NCBI GenBank assembly: GCA_016124895.1
Contig: WGMU01000123.1
Span: forward strand, 1-35,729
Source: a bacterium
GTDB taxonomy: Bacteria; Planctomycetota; Planctomycetia; Planctomycetales; Planctomycetaceae
Length of the DNA stretch: 35,729 bases
Reading direction: 5' to 3'
A program made the translations under genes and the position numbers. The notes beneath the pieces are model-generated. The model was not told the origin of the DNA and made no database searches. It was given only the letters and a program-made list of their open reading frames with translations. Every line of letters starts with the position of its first letter. The stretch's first letter is position 1. This document shows, piece after piece, positions 3,543-8,903 of the stretch.

Positions 3543-4775
3543 TTATCCAAACTCAGTAAAGGCGTCCATTGGCACAGCGACGATGCCGGACTGCGTCACC
3601 GTGAAACCGCGGGCGCGATCTTTCTCGGGGTCGAATCCGATTTCGGCGCCTTCGGGCACACGCACGTTTTTGTCGATGATCGCGCGACGGATTTTGGCGT
3701 GCCGCCCGACCTGCACTCCATTAAACAGGATCGAGTCGCGGACCTCCGCCCAACTGTTGACACGAGAGTTAAAGCCGACGATCGAGTGCTCGACCAGTCC
3801 GCCGGAAATGATCGCGCCGGGGCAGAGCACGCTGTCAAGCGCCCGACCCGCGCGGGGACGATCGCCACTCACGTCGGCAAAGACAGTTTTCGGCGGGGGC
3901 AGCGGCGGGTGATAGGTATTGATCGTCCAGGACCGGTCGTACAGATCGAGTTCCGGCGCAACTTCGACCAGATCCATATTTGCTTCGTAATACGCGTCGA
4001 GCGTGCCGACGTCGCGCCAGTAGTTAGTCGCATTCGTGTTCCGGTCACGGAACGGATACGCCAGCACGTGATCGGTTTCGATCATCGACGGAATAATGTC
4101 TTTACCGAAGTCGTGCGAACTGTCGCGTTCGGTGGCGTCCGTGCAGAGTCGATCGAGCAGAAAGTCGCGATTGAAAATGTAGATGCCCATCGACGCAAGG
4201 AAGCGGTCCGGATCATCCGGCATCGGCTCAGCCAGCGGCGGCTTCTCCTGAAAACCGGTGACCCGCATGTCGCCGTCGCACTGGATCACTCCGAACTGAT
4301 CAGAGTACTTCAGTTCGACCGGCAGGCAGGCGATTGTCGCGACGGCGTTTGCATCGATGTGCTGCCGGAGCATGTTTGAGTAATCCATCTTGTAGATGTG
4401 ATCGCCCGACAGAATGACGATGTAGTCCGCCTCGTGCTGCTCGATGGTGTAGATATTCTGGTAGACGGCGTCCGCGGTGCCACGGTACCACTGCTCGTCG
4501 ATGCGCTGCTGCGGCGGCAGGATGTCGATGAACTCGTCGAGTTCGCGGTGCAGAAAGTTCCAGCCGAGCCGGACGTGACGGTCGAGACTCGCGGCCCGGT
4601 ACTGCGTCATGACCAGAATGCGGCGCAGGTCGGAGTTCAGGCAGTTCGACAAAGTAAAATCGATGATCCGGTACGCCCCGCCGAACGGCACGGCTGGCTT
4701 GGCCCGCTCGCGTGTCAGAGGTTCGAGCCGCGTCCCTTTGCCTCCGGCGAGGATCAGAGTCAGCACGTTCTTCAC
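3543..4775 (-). CDS. glgC: Glucose-1-phosphate adenylyltransferase (ADP-glucose pyrophosphorylase)
   Basis: GlgC makes ADP-glucose from ATP and glucose-1-phosphate, the committed step of bacterial glycogen synthesis. The product begins with the nucleotide-binding motif [15 protein letters not shown], followed by [19 protein letters not shown] and [19 protein letters not shown] is the sugar-nucleotide/metal site. The C-terminal part is the left-handed beta-helix built from hexapeptides ([31 protein letters not shown]). I chose the GTG at 4775, giving 410 residues, because the motif starts within a few residues and a GAGGGA sits about seven bases upstream. The frame stays open to 4913, but that extension has no family similarity. 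The Shine-Dalgarno and start codon are duplicated in tandem just upstream (see the separate entry). The PEP-hydrolase-like gene follows on the same strand. No other glycogen gene is in the window. Confidence 0.95.
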
Positions 4776-5201: not shown

Positions 5202-6881
5202 GTGCCGTCCGAAAGTTTTTCAGGTCAATCCGCAGACCGAGCGTCGAAACCGGTGCTGTCGTGGCTGCGTGCGCTGATCGGGCCGTCGATTGTCTCTATC
5301 ACCGCGCTGGTCGCTGTCGCGTTGACGCTGGATCCCGCCGATTGTCGACCATCGCTGCCGGAAGGTCCGGGTCTGACGCTCGACGAATCCTTCAATGTCC
5401 AGATGGGGGTTTACCTGGCGCGCAGCGTTGCCGATTACGGCGTCGGACTGCTGCATCCCGACAGCGCCGCTGAGGTCTTCGGAGTCCACGGCTACAACCC
5501 GGATCATCCGCCGCTTGGGCGACTGTGGCTGGGTCTCGCTCACGATCTGGTTGAGTCGTCCGCGCCGGCCAACCTTTCGACTTACGCCGATACGATGCCG
5601 GTTCGCTTTGTGATTGTCAGCGCGCGAGTCGGCTCGGCAGTCGCGTTCGCCCTGACCGTTCTGCTGATCGGAGCCTTTACGGCACGACGCTGGGGACGGC
5701 TTGCCGGAACGTCTGCGGCACTCTGTTTCGTGCTGATGCCGCGAGTTTTCGGACACGCGCATTTTGCGGCGCTGGAGACGGTCATGAATCTCTTCTGGAC
5801 GCTGGCCCTGCTGACGACTGCGTCGCTCTGGAGTAGGACTGATTCGGCATCCAGACCAACCAAGAAGGCCGCCGCGCTCAGTGGCCTGCTGCTCGGCCTC
5901 GCTCTGCTGACGAAGATCCAGGCCGTCATTCTGCCGCCGCTGATCGTCGTCTGGGCAGTCATGTTCTGGCGAGTTCGCTCGCTGCTCCCATTGTTGATCT
6001 GCGGTGTGACGGCGACGGTGACGTTCGGTGTCGGCTGGCCGTGGCTGTGGCTCGATGTACCTGGCAACCTGGTCGCCTACTTCGCGCGTACGACGGACCG
6101 CACCCTTTTGCATGTCTGGTACTTGGGCGAACGCTTCGTCGACCGCGACGTGCCCTGGCACTACCCGTGGGTCTGCTTCGTCGCGACCGTACCGATCGGC
6201 ATCCTGCTGGCCGGCCTGCTGGGCTGCGGCGAACTGCGACAGAGTGACCGGCGTCGTGAACTGCTGCTGATTGTCGGCTCGATCCTCACGCCGCTGGTCC
6301 TGTTCAGTCTGCCGGGAGTCGCGGTCTACGATGGGGTGCGACTGTTCCTCGTCGCGTTTCCCGGCTGGGCGATTCTCGCCGGCCTGGGCACACAGAAACT
6401 CCAAGTCTGGCTGTCTCGCCGAGTGAAAAAGCCGACCGTCTGGACCACCGCGTTTCTGGCCTCGAACGCTGTCGGCCTCATCTGGCTGCACCCGTTCCAT
6501 CTGAGCTACTACTCAGCCGTAGTCGGCGGCACGGCCGGAGCGGCACGACTTGGCTTTGAAGCCAACTACTGGGGCGACGCGATTTCGCGCTCACTGCTCG
6601 ACGAGATCGCCAACGAACTTCCGCCCGGATCCCTCGTCGAATTCGCCCCGCTGATGCACCCCTACCAGCTCACCGAGCTGTACCAGCTCCCCATCATCGA
6701 GCGCGCTCAGATCCACCTGAAACCCTACAACACCGCCCCACGAGGCCCCTGGCTCCTCGTCTTCCACCGCCTCGCGGATGTCCCCAGCGAAGAACGACTC
6801 AAATCCGAAAACTGGGCAATCGTCACCGACGTCCAGCGTCAGAGAGTGAGACTGGCGTCCTTGTGGCAGAAGCAGCGCTGA
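5202..6881 (+). CDS. Polytopic membrane glycosyltransferase (PMT/ArnT-like, GT-C fold)
   Basis: The 559-residue protein has about ten or eleven hydrophobic segments spread over its length. After the first one comes an extracytoplasmic loop with the acidic pair TLDESFN and then NPDHPPLGRLWLG. An Asp-Glu pair followed by a His-Pro-Pro motif is the hallmark of lipid-carrier-dependent glycosyltransferases related to protein mannosyltransferases and ArnT. Such enzymes move a sugar from a polyprenyl-phosphate donor to a protein or lipid on the outer face of the membrane; the substrate here cannot be told. The GTG at 5202 is the assumed start and lacks a clear Shine-Dalgarno. The last codons (RVRLASLWQKQR) recur in a diverged copy at 7561-7599, beyond the next gene. 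Confidence 0.8.
   Translation: MPSESFSGQSADRASKPVLSWLRALIGPSIVSITALVAVALTLDPADCRPSLPEGPGLTLDESFNVQMGVYLARSVADYGVGLLHPDSAAEVFGVHGYNPDHPPLGRLWLGLAHDLVESSAPANLSTYADTMPVRFVIVSARVGSAVAFALTVLLIGAFTARRWGRLAGTSAALCFVLMPRVFGHAHFAALETVMNLFWTLALLTTASLWSRTDSASRPTKKAAALSGLLLGLALLTKIQAVILPPLIVVWAVMFWRVRSLLPLLICGVTATVTFGVGWPWLWLDVPGNLVAYFARTTDRTLLHVWYLGERFVDRDVPWHYPWVCFVATVPIGILLAGLLGCGELRQSDRRRELLLIVGSILTPLVLFSLPGVAVYDGVRLFLVAFPGWAILAGLGTQKLQVWLSRRVKKPTVWTTAFLASNAVGLIWLHPFHLSYYSAVVGGTAGAARLGFEANYWGDAISRSLLDEIANELPPGSLVEFAPLMHPYQLTELYQLPIIERAQIHLKPYNTAPRGPWLLVFHRLADVPSEERLKSENWAIVTDVQRQRVRLASLWQKQR
6843..6881 (+). repeat. Left copy of duplicated glycosyltransferase 3' end
   Basis: These 39 bases are the last 12 codons and stop of the glycosyltransferase gene. 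They match 7561-7599 with the final 21 bases identical. The pair brackets the nucleotidyltransferase-fold gene. Confidence 0.75.
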
Positions 6882-6977
6882 AGAAGTATGAACCTCAGCA
6901 TAGAATTGGGTGGTTCCACAGGCTGGCAGTCGTGTCCGACGATTGACGCATTCACTCTGGCACAATTGAGGTCACGA

Positions 6978-7553
6978 ATGATTTCAGCGCAGCAGGCCTA
7001 CATCATGCTCGGAAACCAAACGCTCTGGGAAACCGCTGCGCTGTGCGATCGAGTTCTGGGCGAGGCCGAGCTGGAGTATTCCATTTGTGGCGGTGTTGCG
7101 GTCTGCCTGCATGGCTACCAGCGGAACACAGTGGACCTTGACCTGGTGATTCGCCGCGAAGATTCGGTTCGCGTTCGCGAACTCCTGGAGTCGGCGGGTT
7201 TGATCTGGGATGAATCGGCCGCCGAGTTTCGGACCCAGGGAGGGGTCGCCGTTCAGTTTCTCCTGGCGGGCGAATCCGCCGGACGCGGCACGGGGATACA
7301 GATTCCAGAACCCGCTGGCGAAGAAAACGTCGAAGTCATCGAGGGCCTGACAGTGCTCAGGCTCTCAAAGCTGATCGAAATGAAACTCGCCTGCGGATCG
7401 GCCAACCTGCGACGCACTCACAAGGACTACGCCGACGTCGTCGAACTCATCGTGATTCGTCAGCTCGACGGTTCCTTCGCGAGGTTTCTCGACAAGTCGC
7501 TGCGGAAGACGTTCCGGGAACTTGTGCAACGGGTCCAGAGCGACAGCCAGTAA
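6978..7553 (+). CDS. Nucleotidyltransferase-fold protein (AbiEii/MNT-like)
   Basis: The product has the minimal nucleotidyltransferase signature: CGGVAVCLHGYQRNTVDLDL, with the Gly-Gly at residues 38-39 and the metal-binding Asp-Leu-Asp at 53-55. A later helix, LIEMKLACGSANLRRTHKDYADVVELI, is typical of the AbiEii-like and related uncharacterised families. These proteins transfer nucleotides to small molecules, proteins or RNA; some are toxins of toxin-antitoxin pairs. No antitoxin-like partner gene is next to it, so a toxin role is not supported. The ATG at 6978 (191 residues) is preferred because GAGG lies six bases upstream; an ATG at 6888 in the same frame would add 30 residues without family similarity. 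The gene sits between two copies of the glycosyltransferase 3' end, which suggests that it arrived by insertion or survived a deletion at this spot. Confidence 0.7.
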   Translation: MISAQQAYIMLGNQTLWETAALCDRVLGEAELEYSICGGVAVCLHGYQRNTVDLDLVIRREDSVRVRELLESAGLIWDESAAEFRTQGGVAVQFLLAGESAGRGTGIQIPEPAGEENVEVIEGLTVLRLSKLIEMKLACGSANLRRTHKDYADVVELIVIRQLDGSFARFLDKSLRKTFRELVQRVQSDSQ

Positions 7554-7560
7554 CAGCTTC

Positions 7561-7599
7561 CGGCTGCGACTCGCGTCGTTGTGGCAGAAGCAGCGCTGA
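7561..7599 (+). repeat. Right copy of glycosyltransferase 3' end (relic)
   Basis: In frame this stretch reads RLRLASLWQKQR-stop, against RVRLASLWQKQR-stop at 6843-6881. Six bases differ, but only one residue changes (Val to Leu); the others are silent, for example aga/cga, ctg/ctc and tcc/tcg. That pattern means both copies were once under coding selection. The right copy now has an in-frame stop just upstream (7552-7554) and no start, so it is a gene relic. Confidence 0.7.
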
Positions 7600-7658
7600 G
7601 AGAAAGCATTGATTTCCCGACAACTCAATTGCGTCCCCGCGTTCTGGAGCTTCGTTTG

Positions 7659-8903
7659 ATGTTTCGCATTCTCCCGACTGTGGTTGCTCTCCTGCTTCCG
7701 CTGATAGCAAACGCCGCCGATGACTTTGCGTTGAAAGACGGAGACACGGTCGTTTTTCTCGGCGACAGCATCACCGCCGCGCGGACGTACGGGGAGATCA
7801 TTGAGAACTACACGCTGCTGCGGTTTCCGGAGCGGCGGGTGAATTTCTTCAACGCTGGCTGGGGTGGTGACACCGCGGCTGGCGGAGCGGCACGGCTTGA
7901 ACAGGACGTGTTTTCCCGTGGCGCGACGGTCGTCACAGTGGCGTTCGGGACAAACGATATCGGTTGGGGGGGACTCGCCGATGAAGCACATCAGCAGAAA
8001 TACTTCGACGGGATCCGCTCGATCGTGGCTCAGTGCCGCGAGCGAAACGTGCGCGTCTTTATCTGCTCGGCCGCGGTCACAGCCGCCGATCCGGACAAGT
8101 CGGAAACGGCGGTTCTGCAGACCATGTGTGACCGGGGCATGCAGATCGCCCGCGAACTCGGCGGGGACGCCATCGACGTGCAACGCGGGATGCGCGAGAT
8201 CCAGCGCCGCGTCATCGCTGAAAACGAACGGCTCAAGAAGGAAAACAAGCCGACGACGATGCACGCGGCCGACGGAGTTCATCTCAACGAACTCGGCCAG
8301 CTCGCGATGGCGTTTACTATCCTGAAAGGACTCGGCGCACCGCAGGACGTCTCGTCGGCAACGATTGACTTCGAGGCTGCTGCCGTCGTGGAAACGGCCG
8401 GCTGTCAGATCAGCGATGTCGAACAGACGGTAGACGGAGCCCTTGAATTCACACGGCTCGATGAAGGTCTGCCGATCAACTTCGGGTTGTTCGGGGCTCT
8501 CAACTTCCGCTTTGTCCCGTTCCATTCCGAGCTGAATCGATACCTGCTGGCCGTCCGCAGTCTGCCGGCGGGCAAGTACCTGCTGACGGTCGATGACCGC
8601 GAAGTCAGCAAATACTCAGACAGCCAACTGGCGAAAGGTGTCAACATTTCGTTTGCCACAACGAACGCCTGGCAACCCGGCGGACCGTGGGACGCACAAT
8701 CGACGTCGCTGCGTTCCCTCACAGAAGCCCGCAGCCGACTGGCGACGTCCGAGCTGATGTGGAACGTCAATCTGAATGGCAGCGAACGTCGGCCGAAGAT
8801 TGCCGATCAGGTCGAAGCGATCGATGCGCAGTTGCAATCGCTGCAGCGAACCGTCGCCCGACCGATACCGTACCGGTTTCGCCTGAGTCACGTGGAGCCG
8901 TGA
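7659..8903 (+). CDS. Secreted SGNH/GDSL-family hydrolase with C-terminal extension
   Basis: A short signal peptide ([19 protein letters not shown], cleavage near ANA-AD) sends this 414-residue protein out of the cytoplasm. The SGNH blocks are all present: FLGDSIT with Ser37, NAGWGGDT for the block-II Gly, GTND for the block-III Asn, and the catalytic pair DGVH with Asp205 and His208. Family members are esterases or acetyl-hydrolases acting on lipids or acylated polysaccharides. About 170 residues follow the catalytic domain and probably form a beta-rich accessory domain. The ATG at 7659 is supported by GGAG nine bases upstream and by the signal peptide. A sulfatase gene follows 139 bases downstream, which fits a role in using esterified or sulfated polysaccharides, but that pairing is inference. 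Confidence 0.88.

Follow-up and report, generated by a model that had tools for sequence, protein, structure and literature searches.

Why does the 3' end of one glycosyltransferase gene in a planctomycete genome stand on both sides of a solitary nucleotidyltransferase-fold gene, and how did the gene in the middle come to lie there? The window examined here (the whole analysed stretch of 35,729 nucleotides from a Planctomycetaceae genome) holds this arrangement just upstream of an SGNH/GDSL hydrolase gene. A similar layout recurs at a few unrelated genes in related bacteria, so that ordinary DNA recombination, and not a dedicated mobile element, seems to have left this scar. We put at about one in two the probability that foreign DNA was joined within the 3' end of the gene through homology (homology-facilitated illegitimate recombination), one of the two tails being foreign. 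The features concerned are the following.

5202 to 6881, + strand: intact gene of 559 codons for a PMT-type glycosyltransferase (dolichyl-phosphate-mannose mannosyltransferase family; PF02366 and PF13231 above cut-off; 87% identical protein in the congener G001)
6843 to 6881, + strand: left tail copy, the final 12 codons and stop of the glycosyltransferase gene
6882 to 6977, no strand: insert spacer of 96 bases, non-coding
6978 to 7553, + strand: solitary nucleotidyltransferase-fold gene of 191 codons, the cargo (family alignment; model with mean pLDDT 92.7; PDB neighbours MenT1, JHP933, ANT(2'') and LnuA)
7561 to 7599, + strand: right tail copy, outside any intact glycosyltransferase gene, running on into the native downstream sequence of G001
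7659 to 8903, + strand: downstream SGNH/GDSL hydrolase gene (PF13472), which adjoins the glycosyltransferase gene in G001

The sequence-only reading had reported that the end of the glycosyltransferase gene (6843-6881) recurs at 7561-7599, with the last 21 bases identical and six upstream differences that change a single residue, and all of this was confirmed. The copies differ at 6/39 positions (33/39 shared), both keep the stop codon, and the peptides that they encode, each running to the stop, are RVRLASLWQKQR and RLRLASLWQKQR; five of the six left/right differences are synonymous. A repeat search returned the bracketing direct repeat as 35 nt at 91%. Across the whole genome (8.13 Mb in 195 contigs), a degenerate 30-mer of the tail, allowed at most three mismatches, was found at exactly two sites, both at this locus, while its reversed-pattern control gave 0 matches. 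The tail is therefore not a dispersed repeat, and the genome search for further copies that had been suggested from the sequence alone thus rules out a frequent dispersed repeat as the source of the pair. Direct repeats scoring at least 25 and spaced by 150-4000 bases numbered 85, as a raw count, in real sequence, as against 0 in first-order Markov surrogates (3 x 1.96 Mb) modelled on sampled stretches of the window's genome; the score of the window pair is 27.5.

The insert between the tails (6882-7560, about 0.7 kb) contains one gene only, and neither an integrase nor a transposase. The nucleotidyltransferase stop codon occupies 7551-7553 and is followed by 7 bases and then the right tail copy. 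The spacer at 6882-6977 had no homologue in 170 family genomes save three matches of 22-23 bases at E 0.002-0.01, and a scan of 6700-7800 gave no site resembling a promoter or terminator. The G+C content of the insert (55-61%) and that of the glycosyltransferase gene (60-65%) differ by a gap too small to use.

An alignment of the locus with close relatives, as the sequence-only reading had suggested, points to insertion. In G001, which is the sole other genome of the genus compared and is 84% complete, the glycosyltransferase gene has one tail and the SGNH hydrolase gene comes next, no nucleotidyltransferase gene lying between the two. Aligned to G001, the window falls into an upstream and a downstream block whose counterparts in G001 (L003 1409-3161 and 3133-4463) overlap by 29 bases, which is the formal signature of an insert with a duplicated target; past the right tail copy, the window runs on as what in G001 is native downstream sequence. 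Because G001 has one tail and no nucleotidyltransferase gene, the middle gene was either inserted in the window lineage or precisely lost in G001, and comparison with this one congener supports gain rather than exact loss. The proposal that a segment was inserted at the 3' end, with a second tail keeping the gene intact, finds support in this empty site and in the same architecture at other genes described below.

The converse history would be that the arrangement is old in the genus and that G001 lost the gene via recombination between the tails, with one tail left behind. Direct repeats favour exact loss, and a single congener was compared; this history nevertheless seems rather improbable to us, given a patchy gene family whose loci lie beside many different genes. 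In the relatives from other genera that were compared, no SGNH gene adjoins the glycosyltransferase gene, so they supply no outgroup for gain versus loss in either direction. A search of 84,980 species genomes, which reaches close relatives only, returned 40 nucleotidyltransferase loci, 39 of them titled as planctomycete taxa and one from Bryobacteraceae at 35% identity. Within the taxonomic family, matches at E <= 0.001, many of them distant, were present in 79/170 genomes, and plasmid and phage records gave no match. As judged from these matches, the gene family is patchy and mostly planctomycete. Its neighbour genes differ from locus to locus, the nucleotidyltransferase gene lying at most 200 bases behind a co-directional ORF in 19/42 loci (3/42 had no called upstream ORF), and such varied neighbours would suit occasional solitary gain.

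The alternative offered by the sequence-only reading, deletion of a second tandem glycosyltransferase gene of which only the tail was left, fared poorly; on this view the nucleotidyltransferase gene would have taken the place of the lost gene. Such a deletion would leave a diverged coding tail, and debris of this sort does occur: at L082 (2319-3045; Bryobacteraceae), a gene-start remnant, presumably leuB-like, lies upstream of the distant homologue (35%) and the intact gene lies downstream, with 34/41 bases shared. However, G001 carries one such glycosyltransferase gene, no tandem pair was seen among the matches listed from 150 family genomes, and no trace of a second gene was detected beyond the 39 bases, which together make a tandem deletion very unlikely.

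Evolution of each copy as coding sequence is the favoured reading, short of proof: the simulated chance of one residue change or fewer is 0.003 if all six changes were neutral and 0.15 if three were. On this basis, divergence of the pair as coding sequence in two lineages is favoured over divergence after a duplication. The main rival explanation is an insertion with long target duplication, whereby about 39 target bases were copied, were identical at that time and have diverged since, with the left copy under coding constraint. The overlap of the flanks in the empty-site alignment agrees with this rival, as does the higher of the two simulated values, since with half of the changes in the left copy a mostly synonymous pattern is not unusual; the lower value, which applies if all six sites were neutral, weighs against it. 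Overall, we consider a long target duplication unlikely, although the parallel cases given below bear on it in both directions.

Which of the two tails might be foreign is not settled by their distances from the congener. Left and right tails each show 10/39 differences from G001, so the foreign copy cannot be named from the window, and this equality counts against the foreign-tail explanation. In the last block of the glycosyltransferase gene, which starts at 6813 and is 69 bases long, identity to G001 is 81% as against 89-90% in the three preceding blocks; this carries little weight because block values over the gene as a whole span 70 to 90%, which includes that of the last one. A gapped comparison with G001 was tried as a means of naming the foreign copy and was rejected: the right copy would come nearer to G001 with a 6-base indel, which the aligner did not place. 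Among the C-termini of 28 relatives (27 besides G001), the ending LASLWQKQR is common only to the window and G001, in a rough comparison in which several of the 27 ends were extended by frame walk or cut by a contig, and this sharing points to a tail source within or near the genus. No donor with a glycosyltransferase gene beside a nucleotidyltransferase gene was found, the nucleotidyltransferase loci besides the window's having no glycosyltransferase match and no adjacent SGNH match, which also counts against a foreign tail.

If one tail is indeed foreign, the incoming DNA would have been about 0.7 kb long, would have carried a solitary nucleotidyltransferase gene and would have come from a related lineage, within or near the genus. 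It would have paired by homology with the 3' end of the glycosyltransferase gene, within the last 12 codons, and its far end would have been joined close by with little or no homology. The product would be the gene, the foreign tail, the cargo and the displaced tail in that order, with the glycosyltransferase gene staying whole, and presumably no dedicated enzyme would be needed. In the window, the left joint would lie within the glycosyltransferase gene and the right joint between the nucleotidyltransferase stop and the second tail. We infer the foreign origin of one tail and the recombination route; consistent with both are the empty site in G001, the occurrence of the tail only twice in the genome, the mostly synonymous differences, the C-terminal ending shared with G001 only, and the same layout at three further loci (L065, the RidA locus of G074, and L134).

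Other cargo is found in a similar layout at a few unrelated genes: behind a DUF1553 gene, behind a RidA gene, behind another SGNH gene and in a tail array of Planctomycetes bacterium CA13. Empty-site relatives exist for the DUF1553 and RidA cases. The DUF1553 case compares one locus between two genomes that belong to the same genus (L065 and L064), of which L064 is the empty site. In L065 (5305-5938), a 196-codon ORF with no Pfam match stands at the stop of a DUF1553/DUF1549 gene, with the start of the ORF overlapping the stop of the gene; after the ORF come a decayed second tail of the DUF1553 gene and then native downstream sequence. This right copy has an in-frame stop and has lost the terminal stop, a decay that would be expected of the non-coding duplicate in a long target duplication.

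The RidA case was seen in a comparison of G074 with G034, colinear over a 200 kb stretch in which aligned blocks are mostly 89-94% identical. One of the 12 indels of at least 200 bases had flanks that overlap by at least 20 bases (60 bases in this instance): in G074, a RidA-family gene (PF01042) is followed by 366 bases and then by a second copy of the RidA tail, and the insert is absent from G034 and from a third congener, G107. The right tail is nearer than the left to these relatives, with 2 versus 4 differences of 33 (G107) and 4 versus 5 of 39 (G034), which speaks against a long target duplication and agrees, on small numbers, with displacement of the native tail by a foreign version. A dispersed element that has many matches in G074, G107 and G034 makes up most of the insert; it is roughly 350 bases long and sits behind the RidA gene (L129, about 3902-4246, in G074).

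The second SGNH case (L134, on contig C2) lies in the window's own genome, where an SGNH hydrolase gene is followed by 234 bases, including a palindromic element that is dispersed in G001, and then by a second version of the tail. The right tail keeps its stop and conservative residues, again contrary to a long target duplication; the left tail is the nearer to G001 (6 versus 8 differences of 36), a polarity opposite to that of the RidA case and one that counts against a foreign tail. In CA13 (L045 4500-8010), one gene tail occurs three times (5677-5844, 6702-6746 and 7781-7948), with a G+C-rich hairpin that looks similar by eye behind each tail and different ORFs between them; one of the tails comes after the nucleotidyltransferase gene. 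Two of these copies are identical over 45 bases, which speaks for a target duplication. The part of L045 that was read contains no full copy of the gene from which the tail comes; we take the tail to resemble the end of a TROVE/Ro protein, and its 67-residue piece has no Pfam match. A tRNA-like sequence lies upstream of the tail array. Across the cases, both the targets and the cargo vary, the latter from a gene through an ORF of unknown kind to dispersed elements, and this argues for general recombination.

The tails are not a signature of the nucleotidyltransferase family. Translated flanks were compared at 41 loci with usable flanks (L061, which has no right flank, was dropped, and distant or partial homologues were left out), and 37/41 showed no bracketing repeat above control, which rules out this idea. 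The remaining four had scores of 83, 68, 67 and 54, as against a maximum of 52 in 160 mismatched-flank controls; the repeats of CA13 (L045) and the window are gene tails, and those at L062 and L081 look intergenic by eye. L049 is a counter-example to the foreign-tail explanation: an insert beside the nucleotidyltransferase gene shares no 8-mer with the end of the preceding gene and has no tail copy. In this stretch (L049 1230-1840), which is absent in L050 and L055, a small ORF precedes a further nucleotidyltransferase-like ORF, distinct from the nucleotidyltransferase gene itself. The two ORFs are possibly a toxin-antitoxin pair; the gene upstream of them is presumably metH-like, and the nucleotidyltransferase gene is on the other side.

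Phage attachment sites occur in the 3' ends of genes, where they show an identical block and leave the gene end restored. The identical block of 21 bases at one side of the repeat, together with the restored end of the glycosyltransferase gene, would accordingly fit a small non-autonomous integrating element that carries the end of its target gene, and the sequence-only reading had likened the arrangement to what integrating elements do. That likeness is not supported: the insert of about 0.7 kb is one gene with no integrase, the target varies from case to case (glycosyltransferase, DUF1553, RidA and SGNH genes), as do the neighbours of the nucleotidyltransferase gene, and the nucleotidyltransferase has no match in plasmid or phage records, so that we hold site-specific integration to be highly improbable. 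Just as doubtful is the idea that these are integrase-free single-gene cassettes that use gene 3' ends as attachment sites, each with a copy of the host tail, and that leave and re-enter by host recombination. The minimal mobile elements of Neisseria are single genes gained between conserved chromosomal neighbours with no mobility enzyme of their own, as in the window; unlike the arrangement there, they are exchanged via recombination in both flanking genes, and a duplicated tail is not required.

How often gene ends carry such a second copy was surveyed in 1.96 Mb of the window's genome, where 1,382 ORFs were called and the test could be run at 1,205 gene ends and at 1,167 gene starts. There were 37 raw matches, of which 25 were low-copy: 10 tail-downstream, 5 head-upstream, 4 tail-upstream, 3 head-downstream, and 2 and 1 in the inverted controls. 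By reading, two of the 10 tail matches (the window and L134) are proper gene tails, the others being domain, paralogue or antisense repeats or lying away from the stop; none of the head matches is genuine, that of the window being the same tail copy viewed from the SGNH side. Qualifying tail cases thus number about one per megabase with the window itself counted, and within this survey a preference for gene ends over gene starts has no statistical support. Mixed loci totalling 2.13 Mb yielded 233 repeats in another survey; 67 were low-copy and shorter than 300 bases, and among these the same cases were picked by eye. The cases were partly found by following the window, and only L134 and RidA come from stretches not chosen for the nucleotidyltransferase, the G034/G074 stretch being centred on it. 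A preferred entry point at gene ends, which the present sample is too small to establish, would suggest a general route of single-gene gain.

The layout has known counterparts. Homology-facilitated illegitimate recombination has been proposed for the displaced immunity genes and Rhs tips of Vibrio cholerae (PMC5361080), and in the T6SS immunity arrays and Rhs orphan tips of that organism the 5' part of a gene is likewise kept, with a new 3' end and further DNA, and the old 3' part lies downstream. In the window, by contrast, the two tails represent one stretch of 12 codons in different versions, the cargo has no relation to the target gene, and the case is known from sequence alone. Long target duplication in Helicobacter pylori (PMC1643837) also yields an insert of a few genes bracketed by the duplicated target, and there too a relative has the empty site. 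The Helicobacter cases have a link to restriction-modification genes, whereas the copies in the window are short, diverged and end at a stop codon. Merodiploids of Streptococcus pneumoniae formed by natural transformation are duplications made via recombination with incoming DNA, as proposed for the window, but they span about 100-900 kb and lie between long repeats (PMC3784515). The arrangement is a known and rare kind of scar, instructive but ordinary, and on present evidence there is no new mobile element. Its value is as a clean example of a solitary gene gained at a gene end with no mobility enzyme and with an empty site in a congener, accompanied by similar scars at several unrelated genes in Planctomycetota. 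A limited look at the literature on planctomycetes found no description of such scars in that phylum, which does not imply their absence.

The cargo probably starts at ATG 6978, giving 191 aa, because homology to relatives begins there, at residue 31 of the long ORF. The motif GGVAVCLHGYQRNT-x-D-x-D (GG...D-x-D) is kept in nearly all of 36 aligned members. The structures nearest to the predicted one are those of MenT1, JHP933, ANT(2'')-Ia and LnuA, the best PDB match being MenT1 (8an4; Foldseek E 4.3e-5, TM 0.58). The label AbiEii/MNT-like given by the sequence-only reading therefore holds for the fold only, a predicted fold common to MenT1/AbiEii-type nucleotidyltransferases: the window protein matched no PADLOC or NCBIfam model at E 0.01 and, in Pfam, one model below its cut-off. 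An AbiEii model of PADLOC was matched, weakly, by 12/36 members, and that of Pfam by 4/36, with the window member in neither set. Unlike MenT1/AbiEii systems, the insert has no antitoxin gene beside the nucleotidyltransferase gene, nor any second gene. The likeliest guess from the model is that the protein transfers nucleotidyl groups to RNA or to a small molecule. Its closest relative (L043 5028-6570) lies 41 bases behind a gene for an RlaP-type RNA-repair nucleotidyltransferase (PF10127).
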